From NCBI RefSeq assembly GCF_000009905.1, contig NC_006177.1:868001-932000 (forward strand): a DNA stretch of 64,000 bases, in the 5' to 3' direction. The DNA comes from Symbiobacterium thermophilum IAM 14863. Its GTDB lineage: Bacteria; Bacillota; Sulfobacillia; Symbiobacteriales; Symbiobacteriaceae. Positions 26,740 through 43,632 of this stretch are shown piece after piece. The position numbers and the translations under genes are program-made. The notes beneath the pieces are model-generated. The model saw nothing but the letters and a program-made list of their open reading frames with translations, was not told where the DNA came from and searched no databases. The stretch's first letter is position 1. Each line of letters starts with the position of its first letter.

Positions 26740-28245
26740 CTATTTCAGTTCTCGCTTCAATATCTTCCCCGCCGCGTTCTTCGGCAGCTCCGGAAGGAAC
26801 TCCACCTGCTTCGGGATCTTGTACTTGGCCAGCAGCTTCCGGCAGTGTTCGATCAGCTCCTCCTCCGTGAGGCGCATTCCGGGCTTCAGCACCACAAAGG
26901 CCTTGCCCACCTCGCCCCACTTCGGGTCCGGGATGCCGACCACGGCGCACTCGGCCACCGCCGGGTGCTGGTAGATGGCATCCTCCACCTCCAGCGGGAA
27001 GACGTTCTCGCCGCCGGAGATGAACATCTCCTTCTTCCGGCCGACGATGTAGTAGAAGCCCTCCTCGTCCCGGCGGGCCAGGTCGCCGGTGTGCAGCCAC
27101 CCGTCCTGCAGCGCCTCCGCGGTGGCCTCCGGGTTCCGCCAGTACCCCGAGAAGACGTGTCCGCCCTTGATCAGCAGCTCGCCCACCTCGTTGGTCCCGC
27201 ACAGGCGCCCGTCCTCGGCCACGATCCGCAGCTGGATGTGGGGGAGGGGGAAGCCGACGGAGCCGGGTTTGTCCCACGAGCGGTGGTCGGGCATGCCGAA
27301 GGTGTTGGGGCCGGCCTCGGTGAGGCCGTAGCCGATCTTGAACTGGCAGCCCTTCGCCCGGTAGGCCAGCTGCACCGGCTCCGGGCAGGCGGCGCCGCCC
27401 GAGATGAGGAAGCGCACCCGGCTGAAGTCGGTCTCGGCGAACCGGGGGTGGTCCATCACCATCTTGAACATGGTGGGCACCATGAAGATGACCGTCAGCC
27501 GCTCCTTTTCCACCGCATCCAGCAGTTCGCCCGGGTCGAAGGGACCCATCAGGATCGAGCAGCCGCCCAGCTCCACCAGCGGCGTGGTGAAGACGTTCAG
27601 CCCGCCGGTGTGGAAGAACGGGGTGAGGATCGGCACCCGGTCGTCCGGCGACAGCGTCCAGCCGGCGATGGTGTTCCAGGCGTTCCAGAGCACCGCCCGG
27701 TGGCTTAGCACCGCGCCCTTGCTGCGGCCGGTGGTGCCGCCGGTGTAGAGGATCATCCAGGGATCCTCCGGATCCAGATCCGGCGCGGGCGGGGTCTCCT
27801 CCGGGTAGCCGCTCAGGTCCAGGTTCAGCAGCCCCACGGGCTTCGGCGGCTGCAGTTCGGCCACGGCCTGCTCGAAGTGGGGACCGTAGAAGAAGATCCT
27901 CGGGTCGGTGTCGGCCACCAGCGGCCGCAGCTCGGCCACGGTGAGCCGCCAGTTGTAGGGGACGTAGATCGCGCCCAGCTTGCCGCAGGCGAAGAGCAGG
28001 GTCAGCATCTCCAGGCAGTTCTGGGAGAGCACCGCAACCCGGTCGCCCCGACGCACGCCCTGCTCCAGCAGGAAATGGGCCATCCGGTTCGCCATGCGGT
28101 TCCACTGGTCGTACGTGAGCCGGAGCGGCTCCGCCTGCGGGTCGCCCAACCCGGCCCGCTGGGCCCGCGGCATCACGACCAGCGCCTCCCGGAAGGGGGT
28201 GTGAATGGCCCGGCGCCCCAGCCAGTCGCCGACGGTATTGATCAT
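26740..28245 (-). CDS. AMP-dependent acyl-CoA synthetase/ligase
   Basis: 501 residues, ANL superfamily. The AMP-binding P-loop WMILYTGGTTGRSKGAVLSH lies at about residue 165; IGYGLTEAGPNTFGM is the adenine-binding motif; GWLHTGDLARRDEEGFYYIVGRKKEMFISGGENVFP is the hinge region, and AAGKILKREL has the catalytic Lys. It activates a carboxylic acid to its CoA thioester. It is the last gene of the minus-strand block with thiolase, SDR and Liv transporter, so the imported substrate is probably a carboxylic acid. Substrate class is not evident from sequence. Confidence 0.9.
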   Translation of the reverse strand: MINTVGDWLGRRAIHTPFREALVVMPRAQRAGLGDPQAEPLRLTYDQWNRMANRMAHFLLEQGVRRGDRVAVLSQNCLEMLTLLFACGKLGAIYVPYNWRLTVAELRPLVADTDPRIFFYGPHFEQAVAELQPPKPVGLLNLDLSGYPEETPPAPDLDPEDPWMILYTGGTTGRSKGAVLSHRAVLWNAWNTIAGWTLSPDDRVPILTPFFHTGGLNVFTTPLVELGGCSILMGPFDPGELLDAVEKERLTVIFMVPTMFKMVMDHPRFAETDFSRVRFLISGGAACPEPVQLAYRAKGCQFKIGYGLTEAGPNTFGMPDHRSWDKPGSVGFPLPHIQLRIVAEDGRLCGTNEVGELLIKGGHVFSGYWRNPEATAEALQDGWLHTGDLARRDEEGFYYIVGRKKEMFISGGENVFPLEVEDAIYQHPAVAECAVVGIPDPKWGEVGKAFVVLKPGMRLTEEELIEHCRKLLAKYKIPKQVEFLPELPKNAAGKILKRELK

Positions 28246-28340: not shown

Positions 28341-29037
<697 letters not shown>

Positions 29038-29045
<8 letters not shown>

Positions 29046-29832
29046 GAGCGGCACCCTCCTCATCGTCCTCCTCGCCCAGGTAGGCCCGGATCACCGCCGG
29101 GTCGGACTGCACCTCGGCGGGGGTGCCTTCGGCGATCTTCCGGCCGAAATCCATCACCGTGATCCGCTCGCAGATGCGCATTACCAGGCTCATGTCGTGC
29201 TCCACCAGGAGCACCGTGGCCCTGTACCGGTCCCGGACCTCCCGGATCAGCTCCGCCAGTTCCAGCGTCTCCTGCGGGTTCATGCCGGCGGCCGGCTCGT
29301 CCAGGAGGATCAGCCGCGGCTGCGCCACCAGCGCCCGGCCGAACTCCACCCGCTTCTGGATGCCGTAGGGCAGCAGCTGCGGGTAGGCGTCCTTGTAGGC
29401 GGCGATGCCCAGGAACTCCAGCACCTCCAGGGCTCGCTCCTCCGCCTCACGCTCCTCCCGACGGACCGCGGGGACCAGGTTCCCCAGGGCCGAGGCGAGG
29501 AGGCCGTAGCGGATGCGGCTGTGCTGGCCGACCAGCAGGTTGCCCAGCACCGTCAGGCCGCGGAAGAGCTCCACGTTCTGGAAGGTGCGGGCGATGCCGT
29601 GATGGATGACGTCGTGGGGCGCCATCCGCAGCAGGTCCTTTCCCGCGAAGGCGATGCTGCCGCCCACGGGGTCGTAGATCCGGCTGATGAGGTTGAAGAC
29701 GGTGGACTTGCCGGCGCCGTTGGGGCCGATGAGCCCGTGGATGGTCCCTTCCTCCACCGCGAGGTCCAGCCGGTCCACCGCGACGATGCCGCCGAAGCGC
29801 ATCGTCACCTGCCTGAGCTCCAGCAGGGCCAT
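29038..29832 (-). CDS. livG: Branched-chain-type ABC transporter ATPase LivG
   Basis: 264 residues. Walker A GLIGPNGAGKSTVFNLI, the LivG-specific HHGIARTFQNVELFRGLTVLGNLLV, Walker B LILLDEPAAGMNPQE. The usual ABC signature LSxGxQ is replaced by LLPYGIQKRVEFGRAL, the normal LivG form. It ends in an acidic stretch EEDDEEGA. It abuts livM with no gap. Confidence 0.93.
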
Positions 29833-30858
29833 CTACTCCACCCCCCCGGCCGCGGCGTGCCGGCGCCCGGCCCACCAGTGCTGCAGCCTCCGCCACAGGT
29901 CCACGAGCCCCAGGGGCAGGTAGAGCACCACCAGCACCAGGATGACGCCCGTCAGCACCTGATTCAGGTTCTTGAAGACGTTCATGAGGAACGGGGAATG
30001 GTCGAAGGCCCCCGACCGCTGAAGCGCCAGCGAGATCCGTTCCACGGCCTTGGGCATCAGGGACATGAACAGCGAACCCACGATCGAGCCGGGCACCGAG
30101 GCCAGGCCGCCCAGCACGATGATGGTGAACAGCTCCATCGACAGGGCCAGGTTGAAGTCGTGGGGGGCGATGTAGTTCATCATGTGGGCCCAGAGGCTGC
30201 CGGCGATGCCGGCGTAGAACGCCGAGAGGGCGAAGGCGGTGGTCTTGTACCGGGCCAGGCTGATGCCCATCGCCTGCGCGGCGACGCTGCTGTCCCGCAG
30301 GGCGATGAAGGCCCGACCGGTGCGCCGTCTGGCGATGTTCAGGGCCACCCAGGTGAGGAGGGCCAGGGCGATCAGGATCAGGTAGTAGTAGGGGCGGTCC
30401 TCCTTGAAGTAGAGGCCATAGAGGTAAGGGGCGGCGGGCTTCACCCCGGTCCAGCCGCCGGAGAGCCCCTTCCAGAGGTTGAGGATCTGGGGCACCGCCA
30501 CGCCGAAGCCCAGGGTGGCGATGGCCAGGTAGTGGCCCTGCAGCCGGAGCGCCGGGAAGCCCAGGGCGTAGCCCACGGCGGCGCTGATCAGCCCTGCCAG
30601 CGGCAGGGCGCCCCAGAAGGGAATGCCGACCTTGGCGGTGAGGCCGTAGCTGGCGAAGGCGCCGATGGCCATGAAGGCCGCGTGGCCGATGGAGATCTGG
30701 CCGGCGAAGCCGGTGAGCAGGTTGAGGCCGATGGCCGCGATGGCCAGGATCAGGGCCCGGTTGGTGAGCAGCACCAGCCACGACCATTCGTCAGGCAGCG
30801 CGTAGGGCAGCGCCAGCACGGCCAGGGCGCCCAGGAGGAAGAGCAGCTTCTTGCCCAT
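29833..30858 (-). CDS. livM: Branched-chain-type ABC permease LivM
   Basis: 341 residues with about eight to ten hydrophobic helices; FAGQISIGHAAFMAIGAFASY is the LivM signature near the N-terminus, GFPALRLQGHYLAIATLGFG the second. The cytoplasmic EAA-like loop is RDSSVAAQAMGISLARYKTTAFALSAFYAG. It forms the membrane channel with LivH. ATG start 4 bp after livH. Confidence 0.92.
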   Translation of the reverse strand: MGKKLLFLLGALAVLALPYALPDEWSWLVLLTNRALILAIAAIGLNLLTGFAGQISIGHAAFMAIGAFASYGLTAKVGIPFWGALPLAGLISAAVGYALGFPALRLQGHYLAIATLGFGVAVPQILNLWKGLSGGWTGVKPAAPYLYGLYFKEDRPYYYLILIALALLTWVALNIARRRTGRAFIALRDSSVAAQAMGISLARYKTTAFALSAFYAGIAGSLWAHMMNYIAPHDFNLALSMELFTIIVLGGLASVPGSIVGSLFMSLMPKAVERISLALQRSGAFDHSPFLMNVFKNLNQVLTGVILVLVVLYLPLGLVDLWRRLQHWWAGRRHAAAGGVE

Positions 30859-30861
30859 GGG

Positions 30862-31731
30862 CTACACCTTCTTTCGCTGGACGGTCCCCATCAGGCCGCT
30901 GGGCCTCAGCATCAGCACCAGCACGATGAGGCCGAAGGCAAAGGGGGTTTTCAGCTGCGGGACGAACTGGCCGACCAGGTTCTCCAGCACGCCGAGGGTG
31001 AGGCCGCCCACCACGGCGCCGGGCAGCGAGGTGAACCCGCCCAGCACCGCGGCGGTGAACGCCTTGATCTGCATGTCGGCCATCATGTTGATGTCCAGGT
31101 TGGTCACCGGGGCGATGAGGATGCCGGCGGTGGCGGCCAGGACGCCTCCCAGCCCCCAGGTGAGGGAGAGGATGCGGTCGGTGGGGATGCCCATCAGGCG
31201 GGCCGCCACCCGGTTTTCGGCCACCGCCCGCATGGCGATGCCCAGCTTGGTGAACTTGAAGAGGAGGAAGAAGCCGGTCATCACCACGAGGCTGACGGCG
31301 AGGTTGACCAGGTCCGGCAAGGTGATCACCAGGTCGCCCAGGCGGATGGGGCTGCCGCTCACCGCCGTCGGGAACGGCCTGGCCTGGTAGCCCCAGATCC
31401 AGCCGGCCACCCCGTTGATGATCTGCATCAGCCCCAGCGTCGCGATCAGCACGCTGATGAGGGGGGCCTGGGCCAGGGGGCGCAGCGCCACCCGCTCGAT
31501 GACGGCGCCCATCAGGAAGGCGAAGGCCAGCGCCAGCACGAAGGCGCCCCAGTAGGGGAGGCCGGCGGTCTTCAGCAGGGTGAACATGATGAAGGTGCCG
31601 AACATGGCCATCTCGCCCTGGGCGAAGTTGACCACGTCGGTGGTCTTGAAGATCAGCACCAGGCCCAGGGCGGCCAGGGCGTAGAGCGAACCCGTGGCCA
31701 GGCCGCTGATGATCTGCTGGGCGAAGATCAC
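30862..31731 (-). CDS. livH: Branched-chain-type ABC permease LivH
   Basis: 289 residues, GTG start after AGGAGGG. ISGLATGSLYALAALGLVLIFKTTDVVNFAQGEMAMFG is the standard LivH N-terminus; MRAVAENRVAARLMGIPTDRILSLTWGLGGVLAATAGIL is the ATPase-contact loop, and AAVLGGFTSLPGAVVGGLTLG the last helices. Inner-membrane subunit of the importer served by the binding protein at 31898. Confidence 0.93.
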   Translation of the reverse strand: MIFAQQIISGLATGSLYALAALGLVLIFKTTDVVNFAQGEMAMFGTFIMFTLLKTAGLPYWGAFVLALAFAFLMGAVIERVALRPLAQAPLISVLIATLGLMQIINGVAGWIWGYQARPFPTAVSGSPIRLGDLVITLPDLVNLAVSLVVMTGFFLLFKFTKLGIAMRAVAENRVAARLMGIPTDRILSLTWGLGGVLAATAGILIAPVTNLDINMMADMQIKAFTAAVLGGFTSLPGAVVGGLTLGVLENLVGQFVPQLKTPFAFGLIVLVLMLRPSGLMGTVQRKKV

Positions 31732-31748
31732 AGAATCGCCCTCCTACG

Positions 31749-31787
31749 CCGGCGGGGGGAGGGGGAGGCCCCGCTCCCCCCCGCCGG
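31749..31787 (-). terminator. Stem-loop between the binding-protein gene and livH
   Basis: CCGGCGGGGGGAG (31749-31761) pairs with CTCCCCCCCGCCGG (31774-31787) with one bulged C. Such hairpins after binding-protein genes usually lower expression of the permease relative to the binding protein. Confidence 0.5.
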
Positions 31788-31897
31788 TCCGCGTCTCTGT
31801 CAGGAAGCGGTGGTGGGTGCGCTCCCGCCGGGGCCGCCTGAGGACCCGTGCGGACCCGGCTGGTGCGGCCCGGCGGAGCGCGGTGTGGGCTTTCGGT

Positions 31898-33184
31898 TTA
31901 CCGGAGGCGGTACGGCTCCTGGTTCACCTGCACCATCACGATGTTGCCGTCCTGCTCGATGACCTTGTTCAGGTAGAAGGCCTTGACGCCCGCCCGCTCG
32001 CCCGGGCCGTAGGTCAGGTTCCGGGCCATGATGCCGCTCCAGTCGTTCAGGTTCTCGAGCGCCTGGATGAAGCTCTCGTAGGTGAGGTCGCGGCCGGCGT
32101 CCTCCAGGCCCTTCACCAGCAGCTCGGCGGCGATGAAGCCGGCGGTGCCGTAGGCGTCAGGCAGCTCGCCGTTGTTGTACCGGCCGTAGATCTCCCAGAA
32201 CTTCTGGATGTTGGGGTCGTCGGGGTCGGCCACGGGCACCCAGCCGCCGGCGTAGAGGCCGATGGCCGCCTCGCCCGCGAGGGCCGGCACGTTCACCGGG
32301 TCGGCGTTGACGTAGGAGGTGATGGGCACGGCGGTGACGCCTTGCTTGTGCATCTCCTTCACGATGCCGATGGTCTCCGCCAGGGTGGTCATGATCACCA
32401 CGCCCTCGGCGCCCTTCTGCTTCAGGTTGAGCACCGGGGTGGTGAAGTCCACCGAGCCGGCGTCGTGCGGGGCGTCGTAGACCAGTTCAGCCCCGAGCTC
32501 GCCGATGTAGTCCTTCACGCCCTTCAGGCCCTGCTCACCCATGTCGCTGTTCTGCCAGAGCACGGCGATCTTCTTCAGGCCCAGCTCGTCCACCAGGTAC
32601 TGGGTGAGGATCTTGGCCTCGTCGTAGTTGTTGGGCTGCACCGCGAAGATGTTCTCCTGGGGCGGGTGAGCCGTCTGTTCCACGCCGGTCATCGGGTAGA
32701 TGACGGGGATCCGCTTCTCCACGAAGTAGTCGTAGCTGGCCATGAAGCCGGCGGTGCCCAGGATGGGCGCCAGGGCGAAGACCTTGTCCGACTCCACCAG
32801 CTGCTTGGCGGCCGTCAGGGCCTTGGAGCCGTCGAACTGGTCGTCGATGATGTTCACGATCTCGATCTTCCGGCCGTGGACGCCGCCCTGGTCGTTGACG
32901 TGCTTGATGTAGGCCTCGAAGCCCTTGCGCACCGAGATGCCGATCGGCGCCACGGGGCCGGACTGGGCGGCGAAGCCGCCGACCTTGACGGTGGTGTCGG
33001 TGACGCCCTGGACCTCACGCCGGGGCTGGGTCTCCCCGGACTGTCCGCCCGTCTGCCCGGCCGGCTGGCTGGAGGACGGGCCGGAGGTCTGCCCCGGCGA
33101 CTCCGCCTCGGGCGGCGCCGAGCACCCGGCGATCAGGGCCAGGGAAAGCGCGCAGGCGAGGATCGCAGTGAACCAACGTCTCAC
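31898..33184 (-). CDS. livK: Liv-type ABC substrate-binding lipoprotein
   Basis: 428 residues. MRRWFTAILACALSLALIAGC is a lipoprotein signal (LIAGC), followed by a Gly/Ser/Pro linker to about residue 60 and a type I periplasmic-binding fold: VKVGGFAAQSGPVAPIGISVRKGFEAYIKHVNDQGGVHGRKIEIV, then ALAPILGTAGFMASYDYFVEKRIPVIYPMTG and KKIAVLWQNSDMGEQGLKGVKDYI. These proteins bind branched-chain amino acids, amides or aromatic and aliphatic acids. Being downstream of thiolase and SDR genes, a carboxylate ligand is plausible. Confidence 0.88.
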   Translation of the reverse strand: MRRWFTAILACALSLALIAGCSAPPEAESPGQTSGPSSSQPAGQTGGQSGETQPRREVQGVTDTTVKVGGFAAQSGPVAPIGISVRKGFEAYIKHVNDQGGVHGRKIEIVNIIDDQFDGSKALTAAKQLVESDKVFALAPILGTAGFMASYDYFVEKRIPVIYPMTGVEQTAHPPQENIFAVQPNNYDEAKILTQYLVDELGLKKIAVLWQNSDMGEQGLKGVKDYIGELGAELVYDAPHDAGSVDFTTPVLNLKQKGAEGVVIMTTLAETIGIVKEMHKQGVTAVPITSYVNADPVNVPALAGEAAIGLYAGGWVPVADPDDPNIQKFWEIYGRYNNGELPDAYGTAGFIAAELLVKGLEDAGRDLTYESFIQALENLNDWSGIMARNLTYGPGERAGVKAFYLNKVIEQDGNIVMVQVNQEPYRLR

Positions 33185-33237: not shown

Positions 33238-34416
33238 TCAGGCCCGCTCGACCACCATGGCGATGCCCTGGCCGCCGCCGATGCAGAGGGTCGCCAGGCC
33301 GTACCGGCTCCGCCGCCTCTGCATCTCGTAAAGCAGCGTGACCAGGATGCGGGCGCCCGAGGCCCCTACGGGATGGCCCAGGGCGATGGCGCCGCCGTTG
33401 ACGTTGACCTTGCCGGGGTCCAGTTCCAGCCCCCGGACCACCGCGAGGGCCTGGGCGGCGAAGGCCTCGTTGGCCTCGATCAGGTCCAGCCGGTCGATGG
33501 TCAGTCCCGCCCGGGCCAGGGCCTTCCGGGTGGCCGGGATGGGGCCGGTGCCCATGATCCGGGGCTCCACCCCGGCGGCGGCGTAGCTGCGGATCACCGC
33601 CATGGGCCTGACCCCCAGGGACGCCGCCTTCTCCGCCGACATCACCACCACCGCCGCGGCGCCGTCGTTGATGCCGGAGGCGTTGCCGGCCGTCACGGTG
33701 CCGCCCTCCTTGAAGGCCGGGCGGAGTTTGGCCAGCGCCTCCACCGTGGTGCCGAAGCGCGGGTGCTCGTCGGCGTCCACCACCGTGTCGCCCTTGCGGC
33801 CGGGCACGGTCACCGGCACGATCTCCTCCCGGAACCTGCCGGCCTTGATCGCCGCCTCCGCCTTCTGCTGGGAGGCGGCGGCGAAGGCGTCCTGGTCCTC
33901 CCGGCTGATGCCGAACTGCTCGGCGATGTTCTCGGCGGTGAGCCCCATGTGGACGTGCTCCCAGCCGCAGGTCAGGGCGTCCGCGATCATCGAGTCCACC
34001 AGCTGGCCGTGGCCCATCCGGTAGCCGAACCGGGCCCGGGGCACCAGGTAGGGGGCCCCGGACATCGACTCCTGGCCGCCGGCCACCACCACGTCGGCAT
34101 CCCCGAGCATGATCGCCTGGGCGGCCAGGGCCACCGCCTTCAGGCCGGAGCCGCAGACCTTGTTGACGCCGGTCACCGGCACCGTGTAGGGGATCCCGGC
34201 CTTCAGGCTCGCGATCCGGGCAGGGTGTTGCCCCTCCCCGGCCTCCAGCACCTGGCCGATGATCACCTCATCCACCTGCTCGCCGCGGATCCCGGCCCGG
34301 CGCAGCGCCTCGGCGATGGCGGCCGCGCCCAGCTCGTAAGACTTCACGGTCGACAGCGCGCCGCCCAGGCTGCCGATGGGGGTGCGCACCGCCGACACGA
34401 TCACCGCTTCCCGCAT
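33238..34416 (-). CDS. Acetyl-CoA acetyltransferase / thiolase
   Basis: 392 residues. Acyl-enzyme Cys in [19 protein letters not shown], His in [20 protein letters not shown], and second Cys in [19 protein letters not shown]: all three thiolase motifs are intact. It could run degradatively (acetoacetyl-CoA to two acetyl-CoA) or biosynthetically. ATG 34416 is best, eight bases after GGGAGG. It follows the SDR gene by 18 bp, suggesting consecutive steps on a 3-hydroxy/3-keto acyl-CoA. Confidence 0.93.
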
Positions 34417-34434
34417 GGCCGGCACCTCCCGGGG

Positions 34435-35175
34435 CTACATGTACACGCCGCCGTTGCAGTCGATCACGGCGCCGGTCATGTAGTGGGCCCGGGGCGAGGC
34501 CAGCACCCCCGCCCAGTAGGCGATGTCCTCGGGCTTGGCCCAGTAGCCCACGGGGATGGAGGCGGTGATCTTCGCCTTCTGCTCCTCGGGGTAGCCCATC
34601 ATCATGTCGGTCATGATGTACCCCGGCGCCAGGGCGTTCACGGTGACGCCGTAGCGGGCCATCTCGACGGCCACCTCCTTGGTCAGGCCGATGACACCGG
34701 CCTTGGAGGCGGCGTAGTACGGCGTGCCGAAGACGCCCGTGCGGCCCACGTAGGAGGCGATGTTGATCACCCGTCCCCAGCGCCGTTCCCGCATGGCGGG
34801 GGTGAAGGCCTTCAGGCAGTTGAAGGTCCCGGTGAGGTTCACGTCGATCACCAAGTCCCAGTCGGCCTTGCTGGATTTCCGCATGGTGCCGTCCCGGTTC
34901 ACGCCGGCGTTGTTCACCAGGATGTCGACCTGGCCCACTTCCGCGGCCATCCGGTTCACCTGTTCCTCGTCGTTGACGAAGGCGGGGTAGAAGCGGGCCT
35001 TGACGCCCAGGGCCTGGGCCGCGGCCACCGTCTCGGCGGCCACCTCAGCCATGTCCGGAACGTCGTTCACGATCACGTCCGCGCCCCGGGCCGCCATCTC
35101 CAGCGCAATGGCCCGTCCCAGTCCGCGGGCGGCCCCGGTCACCAGGGCAACCTTGCCGGTGAGTTCCCGTTCCAT
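34435..35175 (-). CDS. SDR-family 3-oxoacyl/acetoacetyl-CoA reductase (FabG/PhaB-like)
   Basis: 246 residues. NAD(P) motif VALVTGAARGLGRAIALEMA, NNAGVNRDGTMRKS, catalytic Ser region VINIASYVGRTGVFG and YYAASKAGVIGLTKEVAVE (YxxxK), C-terminal GAVIDCNGGVYM. It interconverts 3-hydroxyacyl and 3-oxoacyl thioesters. The NRDGTMRKS loop is common in PhaB acetoacetyl-CoA reductases. Between a 57-residue gene and the thiolase gene in one operon. Confidence 0.88.
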   Translation of the reverse strand: MERELTGKVALVTGAARGLGRAIALEMAARGADVIVNDVPDMAEVAAETVAAAQALGVKARFYPAFVNDEEQVNRMAAEVGQVDILVNNAGVNRDGTMRKSSKADWDLVIDVNLTGTFNCLKAFTPAMRERRWGRVINIASYVGRTGVFGTPYYAASKAGVIGLTKEVAVEMARYGVTVNALAPGYIMTDMMMGYPEEQKAKITASIPVGYWAKPEDIAYWAGVLASPRAHYMTGAVIDCNGGVYM

Positions 35176-35198: not shown

Positions 35199-35372
35199 TT
35201 ACTCGCCCTCCGTCTTGCCGGAGAGCTGCAGGCAGTGCTCCATGAAGGCCAGCGCTTCCTCCAGCCGGAGGCAGCGCATCTCCTGGCCGGACTGCACGTG
35301 GCGCACCAGGACCCGGAGCGGCGGTCCGGTGAGCCGAACCACAAACGAGGCGATCCAGGGCTGTTCCGTCAC
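35199..35372 (-). CDS. Small conserved-looking protein, 57 residues, unknown
   Basis: GTG start at 35372 with GGAGG nine bases upstream, 16 bp after the hydrolase stop and 23 bp before the SDR start, so clearly part of the operon. It reads MTEQPWIASFVVRLTGPPLR, then VLVRHVQSGQEMRCLRLEEALAFMEHCLQLSGKTEGE: a beta-strand-rich first half, then an amphipathic helix ending in a charged tail. Codon use and GC at third positions match the neighbours. No recognised domain. The RxVQSGQEMRCxxLEEALAFME pattern could be a small regulatory or complex-forming subunit; that is a guess. Confidence 0.7.
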   Translation of the reverse strand: MTEQPWIASFVVRLTGPPLRVLVRHVQSGQEMRCLRLEEALAFMEHCLQLSGKTEGE

Positions 35373-35388: not shown

Positions 35389-36192
35389 TCACGCCAGAAG
35401 CGCCTGGCGCAGGAAGTCCAGGGCCGTCCGGGAGAACAGGTCGACCTGCTCCAGGAACATGCAGTGGCCGGCCTCCGGCAGCACCACGACCCGGCTGCCC
35501 GGGATCCGCTGCTCCAGGGCTCGGCTGTAGCGGAGCGGCGTGAGCACGTCCTCGTCGCCGGTCATGAGCAGCGTCGGGCAGGTGATGTTCGCGGCCTGGA
35601 CCAGCGCGTCGTGGTCCATCGCGCCCCGGATCAGGTGAAGCACGGCGTGGGCTGGCAGGGCGGTACCCTTCTCCCGCCAGGGGCGGAGCGCCTCGTAGTG
35701 CCGGTTGAGGAAGGTGGCGCCCCAGATCCAGGCGACGGAGACATCGAACCGCAGCGGCCCGCCGCCGGCCTCCATGGCCCGGAGCCAGGAGTTCAGCTTC
35801 ACCTGCATGGCGGTGTCGGCCGCGCCGTAGCCGTTGGCCAGCACCAGGGCCGAGACGCGTTCGGGCCACCGGCCGGCGAAGCTGAGGGCCACGCAGGCGC
35901 CGCTGGAGACGCCGAGCAGGGCGGCCTTCTCCACGCCCAGTCCGTCCAGCAGCCCCTTCAGGTCGTCGGCGTGAAGCCGAGGCGTGTAGGGGCCGTCGTC
36001 CGGCTTCTCGCTTGCGCCCTGACCGCGGCAGTCGTAGGTGAGCACCCGGAAGTACGGGGTGAAGTGAGGCAGGTGGCCGTTCCAGCTGCTCAGGTCGGTG
36101 AGCAGGCCGTTGATGAGGACCAGCACCGGGCCGTCCTCCTGCCCCCGCCACTGGTAGTGGAGCGTGATCCCGTTGGCGCGAATCTCAGGCAT
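35389..36192 (-). CDS. Alpha/beta hydrolase
   Basis: 267 residues. Oxyanion strand region LVLINGLLTDLSSWNGHLPHF, DCRGQGASEKPDD, nucleophile elbow LLGVSSGACVALSFAG (G-V-S-S-G), acid TGDEDVLTPLRYS, and base His in LPEAGHCMFLEQVDLF. Close in layout to 3-oxoadipate enol-lactonases and ring-cleavage hydrolases (MPEIRANGITLHYQWRG start). Start ATG 36192. It lies between the KAS III-like gene and the 57-residue gene. Thioesterase, lactonase or C-C hydrolase activity are all possible. Confidence 0.85.
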   Translation of the reverse strand: MPEIRANGITLHYQWRGQEDGPVLVLINGLLTDLSSWNGHLPHFTPYFRVLTYDCRGQGASEKPDDGPYTPRLHADDLKGLLDGLGVEKAALLGVSSGACVALSFAGRWPERVSALVLANGYGAADTAMQVKLNSWLRAMEAGGGPLRFDVSVAWIWGATFLNRHYEALRPWREKGTALPAHAVLHLIRGAMDHDALVQAANITCPTLLMTGDEDVLTPLRYSRALEQRIPGSRVVVLPEAGHCMFLEQVDLFSRTALDFLRQALLA

Positions 36193-36269: not shown

Positions 36270-37322
36270 TCAGCCGGCGGCCTGCTTGCGCGCCCGGGTG
36301 GCCCCGACCGGCCCCCACTCGATGGCCGTGGCGCCCCAGGCGTAGCCGACGCCCGCGCTCACCCCCACCACCAGGTCGCCGTCCCGGATCAGCCCCCGCT
36401 CCAGGGCGAGGTGGATGGAGAGGATCTGGTCGATCTGGCCGATGTGGCCGTACTCCTCCAGGTAGATCGCCCGGTCGACGGGGATGCCGAGCTGCTCGAT
36501 CAGGGCCTGGTGGGCCGAGCGCTTCATGTGCAGGATCGCCAGGTAGTCGATGTCCTGGGTCCGGTAGCCGCCCTGCGCGCAGACCCGGCTGACCACCTCC
36601 ACCCAGCGCTGGGTCGACACGGCGTTGAGCCGGGTCTTCATGTACTCCACGTCGAACACGTCCAGCTGGTAGAGCGAGTCGTCGTGGTTGTGGAGGCCGG
36701 CCAGCGTCCCGCCCCCGCGGACGCCCACCGTCTCGGAGAGCGAGCCGTCCACGATGATCTCCGAGCCCACCACCCGGTTGCGGCCGTAATTCTTGCGGAG
36801 CAGCATCGCCCCGCCGCCGGCTCCGAGGTTGTACATGAAGGAGACCCGGGGGTTGGCGTAGTTGATGTAGTCCACGTTCCGGTAGCCGCCGGCCAGCAGG
36901 AGGGTGTTCACCCGGTCGTCGCTGAGCATCAGCGCCTGGGCCAGCTTCATGCCCAGCACCCAGGTGCCGCACCGCAGCTGGGCGTCAAAGGCCCAGGCGT
37001 TGTGCGCGCCCACCGCGTGCGCCGTCTTGATGCCGGCGGTCCACAGCTGGTACTCCTTGTACTCCTCGCCGATGTAGATCACCAGGTCGATGGCGGCCGG
37101 GTCAATGCCGGCCCGCTCGATGCACTGCTGCGCGGCCCGGATGCCCATGGCCGCCGTGCCGTCGTCGGGGCCGGGGATGGGCTTGCGCAGGATGCCCATC
37201 TTCTGCTTCACCACGTCCAGCGGCACGCCCGACCGGTCGGCGATCTCCTCGGCGGTCATGTAGCGGTCCGGGATGTAGATGCCGGTGCTGACCACACCGA
37301 CGTGGGGCTGAGTCGTGGTCAT
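36270..37322 (-). CDS. KAS III / HMG-CoA synthase-like thiolase-fold enzyme
   Basis: 350 residues. The thiolase fold is seen in VGVVSTGIYIPDRYMTAEEIADRSG, candidate nucleophile Cys118 in AQLRCGTWVLGMKLA, His265 in YLAILHMKRSAHQAL, and YGHIGQIDQ, where KAS III enzymes normally have YGN: His293 replaces the catalytic Asn. LLLAGGYRNVDYINY and LGAGGGAMLLRK are also family features. FabH proper condenses acetyl-CoA with malonyl-ACP; the altered third residue and catabolic context suggest another acyl-CoA condensation or thioester reaction. It is the first gene of the operon behind the 21-bp element. ATG 37322. Confidence 0.75.
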   Translation of the reverse strand: MTTTQPHVGVVSTGIYIPDRYMTAEEIADRSGVPLDVVKQKMGILRKPIPGPDDGTAAMGIRAAQQCIERAGIDPAAIDLVIYIGEEYKEYQLWTAGIKTAHAVGAHNAWAFDAQLRCGTWVLGMKLAQALMLSDDRVNTLLLAGGYRNVDYINYANPRVSFMYNLGAGGGAMLLRKNYGRNRVVGSEIIVDGSLSETVGVRGGGTLAGLHNHDDSLYQLDVFDVEYMKTRLNAVSTQRWVEVVSRVCAQGGYRTQDIDYLAILHMKRSAHQALIEQLGIPVDRAIYLEEYGHIGQIDQILSIHLALERGLIRDGDLVVGVSAGVGYAWGATAIEWGPVGATRARKQAAG

Positions 37323-37393
37323 GGGCTGCACCTCACCGTGTGTGCTTTCTGAAACGCCTCGCACCGATGGTCTTACCCCCAACGTAAGGGGCC

Positions 37394-37425
37394 GGAGTCA
37401 CCGGGCTGTTACACGGGAGTCACCA
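37394..37425. promoter_or_regulatory. Regulatory element upstream of the KAS III operon: 21-bp repeat plus extra half
   Basis: 37405-37425 is identical to 38474-38494 (core CACGGGAGTCACCA). In addition GGAGTCACC occurs twice here at a 22-bp interval (37394-37402 and 37416-37424), two helical turns apart. It lies 83-103 bp before the KAS III-like start codon. A binding site for the neighbouring AfsR/MalT-type regulator is the natural interpretation. Confidence 0.6.
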
Positions 37426-37579
37426 AAACGAATGAGGACCCGCTCATCCGGTAGGAGGAGAAGGTCCTCGTTCTGGGAGAGTATGGATAGGGCCGGCGAG
37501 CGGCCCCGGGGGCCGGTCGGACTCGGATCGGAGCGCCCTGAGGAATGCCTGTCCGGCGGCGAGCGGCCCTACAGCAGGA

Positions 37580-37605
37580 GGAGCACCCCTGGCGCGGGGT
37601 GCTCC
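37580..37605 (-). terminator. Terminator hairpin after the second alpha/beta hydrolase gene
   Basis: 10-bp perfect stem GGAGCACCCC (37580-37589) with GGGGTGCTCC (37596-37605), 11 bp past the stop codon on the minus strand. No T tract. The rest of the 294-bp gap to the KAS III gene (37323-37616) holds only the promoter elements. Confidence 0.6.
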
Positions 37606-37616
37606 ACGCGTAGTCG

Positions 37617-38396
37617 CTACAGCTGAATGCCGAAGAACTCGATCAACCGTTTCGCCAGTCGCTCGGGCGCCTCCACCGGGGCCGAGTGACCGACCTCCGG
37701 CCAGACCTCCAGCTGGGCGCCCGGGATCTGGTTCCGGGTCCGCTCCATCATGTCCAGCGTGACCAGGCCGTCCTGCCGGCCGTAGAGGATGAGGGTTGGC
37801 ACCCGCAACCCGCCCACCTGCTCCACCAGGTTCATCCCGTCCAGGGCGCGGCCGTTGGGGATCAGGGCGCCGGCCGACTTCTGCACCGACTCCTCCAGCA
37901 CCGCCTGGTAGAACTCGTCCCTGGGGGCGGTGGGCATCATCAGGGCGAGGGCGGCCTTCAGGAGTTCCGGCGCCTTCACCGCCGCCTCCAGCTGCGCGTA
38001 CCGCTCCGGTGGCGTCACCAGCCCTTCGGCCGGCGCCGAGTTGATCAGCACCAGCCGTTCCACCAGGTCGGGGTGGGCGACCGCCAGCTGCATGGCGACC
38101 CCGCCCCCCAGCGAGTGGCCGACCACGAAGCAACGCTGGACGCCCATGGCTTGGGTGAACTGGTACACGTCCTCGGCCAGGTCGGCGATGGACCAGGGGG
38201 GCGCCGGCTTGTCGCTGTCGCCGCAGCCCCGGAGGTCGGGGGCGAGCGTCCGGACGTGCCCGGGCAGGTGCGCCATCACCCGCTCCCACCAGAGAGAAGA
38301 GGCGGTGTTGCCGTGGATCAGCAGGACCGTCTGCCCTCCGTGGCCACGTTCGCGGTAGAAGAGGCGGAGGCCGCTCGGAAGCGTTACCGTAGCCAT
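37617..38396 (-). CDS. Alpha/beta hydrolase (second copy type)
   Basis: 259 residues. VLLIHGNTASSLWWERVMAHLPG (oxyanion region), APDLRGCGDSDKPAPPW, nucleophile FVVGHSLGGGVAMQLA, acid LYGRQDGLVTLDMM, base His VWPEVGHSAPVEAPERLAKRLIEFF. Only loosely similar to the other hydrolase at 35389, so probably a different substrate (haloperoxidase/epoxide hydrolase/lactonase-like group). ATG 38396. It has its own upstream copy of the 21-bp element and a terminator, hence a one-gene unit controlled in parallel with the KAS III operon. Confidence 0.87.
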   Translation of the reverse strand: MATVTLPSGLRLFYRERGHGGQTVLLIHGNTASSLWWERVMAHLPGHVRTLAPDLRGCGDSDKPAPPWSIADLAEDVYQFTQAMGVQRCFVVGHSLGGGVAMQLAVAHPDLVERLVLINSAPAEGLVTPPERYAQLEAAVKAPELLKAALALMMPTAPRDEFYQAVLEESVQKSAGALIPNGRALDGMNLVEQVGGLRVPTLILYGRQDGLVTLDMMERTRNQIPGAQLEVWPEVGHSAPVEAPERLAKRLIEFFGIQL

Positions 38397-38473
38397 GTGA
38401 GTCCCTCCCGTCAGCGGGAAATGCTGATGCGACTGCGACAAGGCGGCGTCGCTGCCGCGCATTGTCGCACCAT

Positions 38474-38494
38474 GCTGTTACACGGGAGTCACCA
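38474..38494. promoter_or_regulatory. 21-bp repeat upstream of the second alpha/beta hydrolase gene
   Basis: Identical over 21 bp to 37405-37425 (core CACGGGAGTCACCA). It sits in the 110-bp gap between the regulator stop codon and the hydrolase start, 77-98 bp before that start, a spacing close to that at the KAS III operon. Confidence 0.6.
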
Positions 38495-42105: not shown

Positions 42106-43632
42106 GAGCCTGTCTGAGTAAGCCAGTTCTGTAGGAGCGAAAGGGTTGGGTGTCCAATGTCTTCATCATGAGCAAGAAGACGTATCGACCGTATCAGCCC
42201 AATCAGCTGTTGCTGCTGCCCCCTGCCCTGCAGGACTGGCTTCCGCATGACCATTTCGCTTATTTCCTGAGTGATGTCGTGGACTCACTCGATCTAAGCC
42301 AAATCGAACGGACATACGAGCGAGAGCTGCGAGGTTACCCACCGTACCATCCGCGGATGATGGTCAAGGTGCTGCTGTACGCCTACTGCAACGGCGTCTA
42401 CTCCTCTCGCAAGATCGAACGCCGGCTGCAGGAGGACGTAGCCTTCCGCGTCCTTGCGGCCAACAACCAGCCCGACTTCCGGACGATCAGCGATTTCCGG
42501 AAGCGGCATCTAAAGGCCCTCTCCGACCTGTTCCTGCAAGTGGTCAAGATCTGCAAGAAGGCCGGGCTGGTTCGCCTGGGTCATGTGGCCCTGGACGGCA
42601 CCAAGATCAAGGCCAACGCCTCCAAGCACAAGGCGATGAGCTACAGCCGGATGGTGGAGGAAGAACAACGCCTGAAGGCGGAGATCGCAGAGCTGCTCCA
42701 GAAAGCCGAGCAAGCTGACCAGGCCGAGGATCACCGCTTCGGCCCACATCGTCGTGGGGATGAACTGCCCGAAGAACTCCGCTTCCGTGAGCGGCGGCTG
42801 GCCAAGATTCAAGAAGCCAAGGCTGCTCTGGAAGCCGAAGCGCGCCTGAGGGCCGGCGCTGACGAACATGAGCCTCCCGAGGAGCCGGGACCCAAGGGGC
42901 CCAAGGGCGGTCGTCGGCGGAAGCGGCCGAAGGCAGAACCCGCACCAACAGCGCAGCGCAACTTTACGGATCCCGATTCCCGGATCATGAAAGGCTCTGA
43001 CAAGCAGTTCATCCAGGGGTACAACGCCCAGGCCGTCGTCGATGCCGATACGCAGATTGTCGTCGCTGCTGCCGTAACAAACCAGGCGGCAGATGCTCCG
43101 CACTTGATCCCCATGATGGAGCAGGTCGAAACCAATGTCGATGAGATGCCGGAGGAGGTTTCTGCCGATGCAGGGTACTTCAGTGAGCAAAACGTTCAGT
43201 GGCTCTTGCAGCGGCGAATCAATCCCTACATTCCTCCGGAGAAGCAGCGGCACAGCGAACGTCGCCGTGCGAAATCACCACGCGGCCCGATTCCCAAGGG
43301 AGCAACGCTTCGGGATCGGATGCGGCGGAAACTGCAGCTAAAGCGACACGCCGAGCGCTACCGAAAGCGAGAGCAGAGCATTGAGCCGGTCTTCGGGCAG
43401 ATCAAGGAGGCTCGTGGTTTCCGGCAGTTCCATCTCCGTGGACTGGAAGCAGTCAACGGGGAATGGCTTCTTGTGTGCCTTTGCCACAATCTCTTGAAGC
43501 TCTACGCCTTCAGCCAGGCCGCATAGGCCCGAAATCTGCCTTCAGACAGCGCATGAAGAAGTAGGCACGATCGTTGATATCCAATCATTGGGAGTCTGCC
43601 CCTATCTCACGTGCGGTTACCCGGACAGGCTC
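42106..43632 (+). mobile_element. IS1182-like insertion sequence, 1527 bp
   Basis: Left end GAGCCTGTCTGAGTAAGC; right end, read inward, GAGCCTGTCCGGGTAACC: terminal inverted repeats of about 18 bp with 3 mismatches. CTAG flanks both sides (42102-42105 and 43633-43636), a 4-bp target duplication or palindromic target site. One complete transposase gene. GC is lower than the chromosome. The element appears intact and potentially mobile. Confidence 0.85.
42150..43526 (+). CDS. IS1182-family DDE transposase
   Basis: 458 residues. The N-terminal conserved block KKTYRPYQPNQLLLLPPALQ, then DWLPHDHFAYFLSDVVD and RELRGYPPYHPRMMVKVLLYAYCNGVYSSRKIERRL, is typical of IS1182 (ISL3/IS5-superfamily relatives). 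Catalytic residues are suggested by GHVALDGTKIKANASKHKAMS (Asp), QAVVDADTQIVVAAAVTNQAADAPHLIPM / EVSADAGYFSEQNV (Asp) and EQSIEPVFGQIKEARGFRQFHLRG (Glu). A charged linker (170-270, EPPEEPGPKGPKGGRRRKRPK) interrupts the fold. GTG 42150 or ATG 42168 may be the start. Probably active: no stop or frame break. Confidence 0.92.
   Translation: MSNVFIMSKKTYRPYQPNQLLLLPPALQDWLPHDHFAYFLSDVVDSLDLSQIERTYERELRGYPPYHPRMMVKVLLYAYCNGVYSSRKIERRLQEDVAFRVLAANNQPDFRTISDFRKRHLKALSDLFLQVVKICKKAGLVRLGHVALDGTKIKANASKHKAMSYSRMVEEEQRLKAEIAELLQKAEQADQAEDHRFGPHRRGDELPEELRFRERRLAKIQEAKAALEAEARLRAGADEHEPPEEPGPKGPKGGRRRKRPKAEPAPTAQRNFTDPDSRIMKGSDKQFIQGYNAQAVVDADTQIVVAAAVTNQAADAPHLIPMMEQVETNVDEMPEEVSADAGYFSEQNVQWLLQRRINPYIPPEKQRHSERRRAKSPRGPIPKGATLRDRMRRKLQLKRHAERYRKREQSIEPVFGQIKEARGFRQFHLRGLEAVNGEWLLVCLCHNLLKLYAFSQAA

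Follow-up and report, generated by a model that had tools for sequence, protein, structure and literature searches.

A predicted SARP-type operator–activator pair with a MalT-like regulator in Symbiobacterium thermophilum, and its probable role in poly(3-hydroxybutyrate)/3-hydroxybutyrate use

SARP targets are direct repeats that lie 11 or 22 bp apart, with 8 bp between the 3′ repeat and the −10 element (PMC10936776). The afs box recognised by AfsR of Streptomyces coelicolor follows this arrangement, consisting of two 11-bp direct repeats that overlap the −35 region, and AfsR itself combines the SARP fold with additional ATPase and TPR-like domains (PMC10936776). PimR, a regulator of the SARP-LAL type, has its SARP domain joined to a large ATP-binding-regulator half, and its operators comprise one triplet and one doublet of the heptamer CGGCAAG, the triplet having 4-bp spacers (an 11-bp period); both operators belong to a single promoter, where the main one stays clear of the −35 box (PMC5930380). 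The SARP domain of AfsR is N-terminal, AfsR controls antibiotics, and the family as a whole is typified by an N-terminal domain and by Streptomyces antibiotic clusters.

The window, that is, the whole 64,000-nucleotide stretch of the Symbiobacterium thermophilum genome analysed here, contains a regulator of 1080 residues (Table 1) that fits neither description, since its SARP domain is C-terminal and its neighbours are catabolic genes. The N-terminal region matches the MalT model (NF003420) over residues 8-434 only and below the cut-off (237.7 bits against 537), and the C-terminus, unlike that of MalT/LAL proteins, carries a SARP domain (residues ~815-1070 of 1080) rather than a LuxR-type HTH. 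The first-pass annotation had described this domain as SARP-like from the letters alone, an assignment now upheld by a BTAD match above cut-off (1.7e-31) and by a whole-domain fold match: the C-terminal 267 residues were modelled at pLDDT 93, and the best Foldseek match was AfsR in its initiation complex (TM 0.74-0.82), followed by EmbR. The Trans_reg_C match falls just under its cut-off (25.3 bits against 26.2). The regulator thus differs from AfsR in having a MalT-like in place of an AfsR-type ATPase and in the position of its SARP domain, and its domain order is likewise reversed relative to PimR.

The recognition helix differs as well. In the window regulator it reads RDFRVALN, and the orthologues share the form RDF[RK]VA[LMF]N, which no other MalT-BTAD protein of the alignment has. 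Among the DNA-contact residues of AfsR, W74 and P79 are kept in the window protein, and T88, R94 and K95 align with V, L and S; V and A/S/N replace AfsR T88 and R92. A second MalT-BTAD regulator of about 1078 residues, with the helix SLRVALHHLRR, is encoded 2.5 kb past the window (G000:C1:934507-937638, G000 being the window genome). A transposase ORF (42150-43526, plus strand, DDE_Tnp_1 / DUF772) lies some 400 bp ahead of the start of the regulator gene. No such ORF was seen upstream of the regulator in the related genomes G001 and G004, and the promoter region of the regulator gene itself may therefore be altered in the window genome.

Table 1. Features of the two transcription units, their promoters and the regulator gene (positions in the window)
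Feature	Position	Strand	Remarks
AMP-forming acyl-CoA ligase	26740-28245	-	Last gene assigned to KAS III unit
Liv-type ABC importer	28341-33184	-	Binding protein 31898-33184
Liv-type ABC importer ATPases	29038-29832; 28341-29063	-	
Liv-type ABC importer permeases	30862-31731; 29833-30858	-	
Thiolase	33238-34425	-	Acetyl-CoA acetyltransferase type
SDR	34435-35175	-	FabG / acetoacetyl-CoA reductase / hydroxybutyrate dehydrogenase superfamily
Small conserved protein, 57 aa (SFVVR...VRHVQSGQE)	35199-35372	-	No family; relatives at the corresponding position in G001 and G004
HYD1, alpha/beta hydrolase	35389-36192	-	3-oxoadipate enol-lactonase-like, below cut-off
KAS III-like enzyme	36270-37322	-	NF005308/PRK06840 above cut-off
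−10-like hexamer TACGTT, KAS III operon	37381-37386	-	8 bp past last heptamer
KAS III operon operator	37397-37423	-	GTGAC 37423-37419, GTAAC 37412-37408, GTGAC 37401-37397; period 11 bp
Terminator-like hairpin between hydrolase unit and KAS III operator	37427-37475	-	dG −29.7 kcal/mol, z −4.6
HYD2, alpha/beta hydrolase	37617-38396	-	Closest solved relative: poly(3-hydroxybutyrate) depolymerase
−10-like hexamer GACAAT, hydrolase unit	38461-38466	-	8 bp past second heptamer
Hydrolase-unit operator	38477-38492	-	GTGAC 38492-38488, GTAAC 38481-38477; period 11 bp
Regulator, 1080 aa	38507-41749	-	MalT-like ATPase N-terminus, helical/TPR-like middle, C-terminal OmpR-type wHTH + BTAD (SARP domain)

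Attention had been drawn to this locus by an identical 21-bp element upstream of two transcription units, and sequence comparison bears the identity out: positions 37405-37425 and 38474-38494 agree over all 21 bp (GCTGTTACACGGGAGTCACCA), and identity is 93% when the comparison is extended to 27 bp. The element reads on the minus strand, as do the genes, and the regulator gene ends 12 bp upstream of the second site. With the starts placed at 37322 and 38396, downstream of the element, the distances to the start codons are 82 bp and 77 bp, against the roughly 80-100 bp first estimated. A genome-wide search, which the first-pass annotation had proposed as a check, recovered the 20-mer exactly twice with up to three mismatches across the entire single-contig genome of 3,566,135 bp, against none for the reversed control. 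Both copies of the 21-bp element are intergenic and lie before genes. A dispersed repeat, with many copies in unrelated or coding positions, was rejected, as only two copies are present in the 3.57-Mb genome.

The 21 bp are not, however, the functional unit; the unit is the direct repeat GTNAC(T) with a period of 11 bp. A pattern of 22-bp repeats only, GGTGACTCC-N13-GGTGACTCC, was rejected because a second good copy is absent from the genome, a result that led to the 11-bp unit. The additional GGAGTCACC reported 22 bp from the first site is real, and its spacing corresponds to two 11-bp periods. On the minus strand the KAS III operon promoter reads GTGAC tcccgt GTAAC agcccg GTGAC tccggcccct TACGTT, and the hydrolase promoter reads GTGAC tcccgt GTAAC agcatggtgc GACAAT. 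In both, 8 bp separate the last heptamer (GTNACTN) from a −10-like hexamer; the hexamers are weak, and upstream of them no −35-like hexamer was found at 16-18 bp. The two layout features of SARP targets, repeats 11 bp apart and an 8-bp distance from the 3′ repeat to the −10 element, are therefore both present, as is the overlap with the −35 region seen at the afs box. The triplet and doublet resemble those of PimR, from which the window operators differ in being divided between two promoters, in their heptamer and in occupying the place of a −35 box.

A generic search of the window for promoters with 11-bp repeats (7-mers at least 6/7 identical, TA...T as −10) returned no others and also misses both real sites. 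A loose pentamer-pair pattern run on five genomes gave extra matches that are palindromes, GTTAC-N6-GTAAC, on both strands (G001:C1:266845-266892, G004:C193:9431-9478 and G000:C1:1781009-1781040), which are probably targets of unrelated regulators. The hairpin directly before the KAS III operator has a TTCGTTTT tail, its stem is kept in G001 by a paired change, and it is probably the terminator of the hydrolase unit.

The arrangement is conserved in the Symbiobacteriaceae. The gene order regulator-hydrolase-KAS III is kept in the sister genome G001 (protein identity 81-89%) and in G004 (62-75%), with extra genes separating the hydrolase from KAS III; G002 retains hydrolase-KAS III, with the regulator on a different contig, and in the relative G025 the KAS III gene directly follows the regulator (identities 38% for the regulator and 56% for KAS III). 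In four Symbiobacteriaceae genomes three repeats precede KAS III and two precede the hydrolase, with 8 bp to the −10 hexamer and changed flanks. The three-repeat layout stands before the KAS III orthologue in G001, G004 and G002, and the −10-like hexamers at the KAS III position in the relatives are TAGGTT, TACCAT and TAGCAT. In G001 the two sites are unlike each other and yet the pentamers persist, so the exact 21-bp identity is incidental. That the identity stems from a dispersed repeat or from a promoter recently duplicated, in either case devoid of regulatory meaning, a reading to which its restriction to the window genome lends itself, is scarcely credible given two intergenic copies before genes and a repeat core that is kept in diverged genomes with different flanks.

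Further out, a scan of named genomes based on the regulator alignment led to relatives in Tumebacillus, Bacillus and the Chloroflexota, and in most of those with enough flanking sequence the operator adjoins the regulator. The repeat layout is kept at orthologous loci in Symbiobacteriaceae, Tumebacillus, Bacillus and one Chloroflexota MAG, beside orthologues of the 1080-residue regulator, and the operator with its adjoining activator recurs in dozens of other Bacillota. When the geometry was scanned at 12 orthologue loci, 20 matches had a period of 11 bp with 8 bp to the −10 hexamer, and other periods or distances gave 0-5; with the −10 distance varied alone there were 20 matches at 8 bp and at most 4 elsewhere. 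At 30 loci of distant MalT-BTAD regulators only one match to the operator geometry was obtained, so an operator of the GTNAC(T) type is not a property of all such proteins. The complete genome of T. avium has three pattern matches, all downstream of the regulator gene at distances of up to about 10 kb, and none in the reversed control. A PWM built on operator sites outside the Symbiobacteriaceae ranked the two window sites first and second in the 64-kb window (20.1, the hydrolase-unit operator, and 11.7; the third match scored 6.7). The random maximum was 6.2 ± 3.2, with 21.7 the largest in 200 runs, and the second-site score is modest by itself; the ranking is supportive and not independent, because the training sites came from a pattern begun in Symbiobacterium.

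Co-occurrence was assessed in 150 relatives of Bacillus pinisoli, 45 with a regulator orthologue and 105 without. The strict operator is present in 37/45 of the genomes that have the regulator and in 1/105 of those that lack it (Fisher 4e-26, uncorrected for ancestry), and 57 of the 66 operator sites lie within 15 kb of the regulator. Two operator-like matches, G087:C33:39669 and G140:C1:389322, are explained by neither a regulator locus nor a depolymerase. AAC-type −35 motifs of ECF sigma factors resemble GTAACT, and this likeness, together with the fixed distance to the −10-like hexamer, would suit a sigma-factor promoter of that kind in place of an activator site. The repeats, however, come in two or three copies with a helical period ahead of a conserved housekeeping-type −10 at a fixed distance, and they track the SARP-domain regulator and its type of recognition helix, which makes a sigma-factor promoter highly improbable. 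The window operator and the adjacent regulator very probably form an activator-operator pair, as predicted from sequence. The suggestion of a regulon with its operator and neighbouring activator is accordingly sustained by the exclusive genome-wide location, the cross-phylum geometry and the co-occurrence, with binding predicted; the 11-bp unit, the promoter geometry, the PHB/3-hydroxybutyrate substrate and the breadth of the system had no part in it. What emerges is a conserved SARP-type pair, judged by its sequence, in a lineage where it was not expected; the domain order is reversed and the recognition helix altered.

The genes downstream of the operators point to a probable role of this pair in the use of poly(3-hydroxybutyrate) (PHB) and 3-hydroxybutyrate (3HB). 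In Tumebacillus and Bacillus, operator sites at a distance from the regulator gene stand before secreted PHB depolymerases (NF050058, above cut-off), before GntP-type permeases and before a MetX-like esterase. In the 150-genome set, exact sites are found at 8/11 PHB depolymerase promoters in regulator genomes and at 0/13 in genomes without it (p = 2e-4, uncorrected for ancestry); with one mismatch allowed the counts become 10/11 and 0/13 (p = 6e-6, uncorrected for ancestry). At L141, the eighth above-cut-off depolymerase of the five Tumebacillus and Bacillus genomes with these distant sites, the repeats are followed by 7 instead of 8 bp. Against the intracellular PHA depolymerase family, with its cut-off of 300 bits, the operon hydrolases of two Bacillus relatives reach 443 bits, and the Bacillus operon otherwise has the same kinds of gene as the window: a Liv-type importer, a small protein, a KAS III-like enzyme, an SDR, a thiolase and a CoA ligase. 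An above-cut-off secreted depolymerase is present in only 10/45 of the regulator-bearing B. pinisoli relatives, so polymer breakdown is not a universal role. The PHA synthase model had no match in 11 genomes, which did not include a positive control, and this favours a polymer made by others over the mobilisation of own stores. We regard PHB/3HB with good confidence as the substrate of the regulon in Bacilli.

In Symbiobacterium the regulon appears to be reduced to two promoters, one for HYD2 and one for a KAS III-HYD1-small protein-SDR-thiolase-ABC importer-CoA ligase operon. The same regulator and operator could here serve another substrate, such as branched or hydroxylated short-chain acids, lactones or esters, the PHB link having been added in Bacilli. 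Both HYD1 and HYD2 also resemble enol-lactonases, and above-cut-off secreted depolymerases are lacking in G000-G004 and G025, as in most regulator-bearing Bacillus relatives. The sameness of gene content between Symbiobacterium and Bacillus, whose operon hydrolase passes the PHA depolymerase cut-off, and the PHB depolymerase that is the best solved relative of HYD2 argue against a different substrate, which we consider rather unlikely. PHB/3HB, as in Bacilli, is thus the favoured substrate in the window, with somewhat reduced confidence: the Symbiobacterium hydrolases do not reach the PHA depolymerase cut-off, HYD2 matching the i_nPHAscl model only partially, over the first half (154.6 bits against 300), and no above-cut-off secreted type-1 depolymerase was found in the window genome. 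S. thermophilum depends on other bacteria, and one may speculate that taking up 3HB or oligomers set free by its neighbours would fit such a way of life.

From the repeats, their geometry and conservation, the co-occurrence and the gene identities we infer binding, activation, inducer and substrate, and the proposal as a whole, that a MalT-type ATPase with a C-terminal SARP domain activates a regulon for exogenous PHB/3-hydroxybutyrate through two promoters, is likely. The N-terminal part of the regulator would sense an inducer, for which 3-hydroxybutyrate or a derivative is the natural guess, and the MalT-like ATPase and helical repeats would gate binding by the SARP domain on that inducer. 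The repeated element would be the activator-binding part of the two promoters, where the C-terminal SARP domains may occupy adjacent GTNAC(T) repeats of 11-bp period, on one helix face and over the missing −35 box. Once bound, they would contact sigma region 4 of RNA polymerase, by analogy with AfsR (PMC10936776), and bring the polymerase to the −10 hexamer that lies 8 bp further downstream, in the manner of AfsR at the afs box. The products switched on would be the alpha/beta hydrolase and the uptake operon with its Liv-type ABC importer; the CoA ligase may activate 3-hydroxybutyrate or its oligomers, and the SDR, thiolase and KAS III-like enzyme may oxidise and cleave them. The Tumebacillus/Bacillus regulon would add two depolymerases, a secreted one for PHB and one of the intracellular PHA type.

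No published account of SARP-type control of PHB/3-hydroxybutyrate use was found in the open-access literature. In contrast to AfsR, the system described here combines a GTNACT repeat with catabolism in Bacillota and Chloroflexota, and we lean towards regarding MalT-type ATPases with a C-terminal, non-canonical SARP domain as undescribed inducer-sensing master activators of exogenous PHB/3-hydroxybutyrate use in these phyla, carrying the SARP mechanism of actinobacterial antibiotic control into carbon catabolism. If this is true, a regulator can be named, an operator defined and the genes listed for the switch that turns on PHB breakdown and uptake in Bacillota, and the SARP promoter mechanism would extend well outside Streptomyces. 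PHB is both a natural polyester and a commercial bioplastic, and the operator/regulator pair would predict, for each genome, which depolymerase genes fall under its control.

It would also become possible to test what the KAS III-like enzyme, the small protein and the Liv-type importer do. The KAS III-like enzyme is unexpected for simple 3HB oxidation; it keeps the Cys and His of FabH, and the position of the Asn aligns with His (EYGHIGQID vs KYGNTSAAS). Beside the 57-residue protein of the window may be listed a 70-residue protein of Bacillus, encoded immediately ahead of the KAS III gene (L228:11617-11826). In G004 a gene of the acetyl-CoA hydrolase/transferase family lies between KAS III and HYD1 (L025:11300-12274), and it is plausibly an acetoacetate/3HB CoA-transferase.
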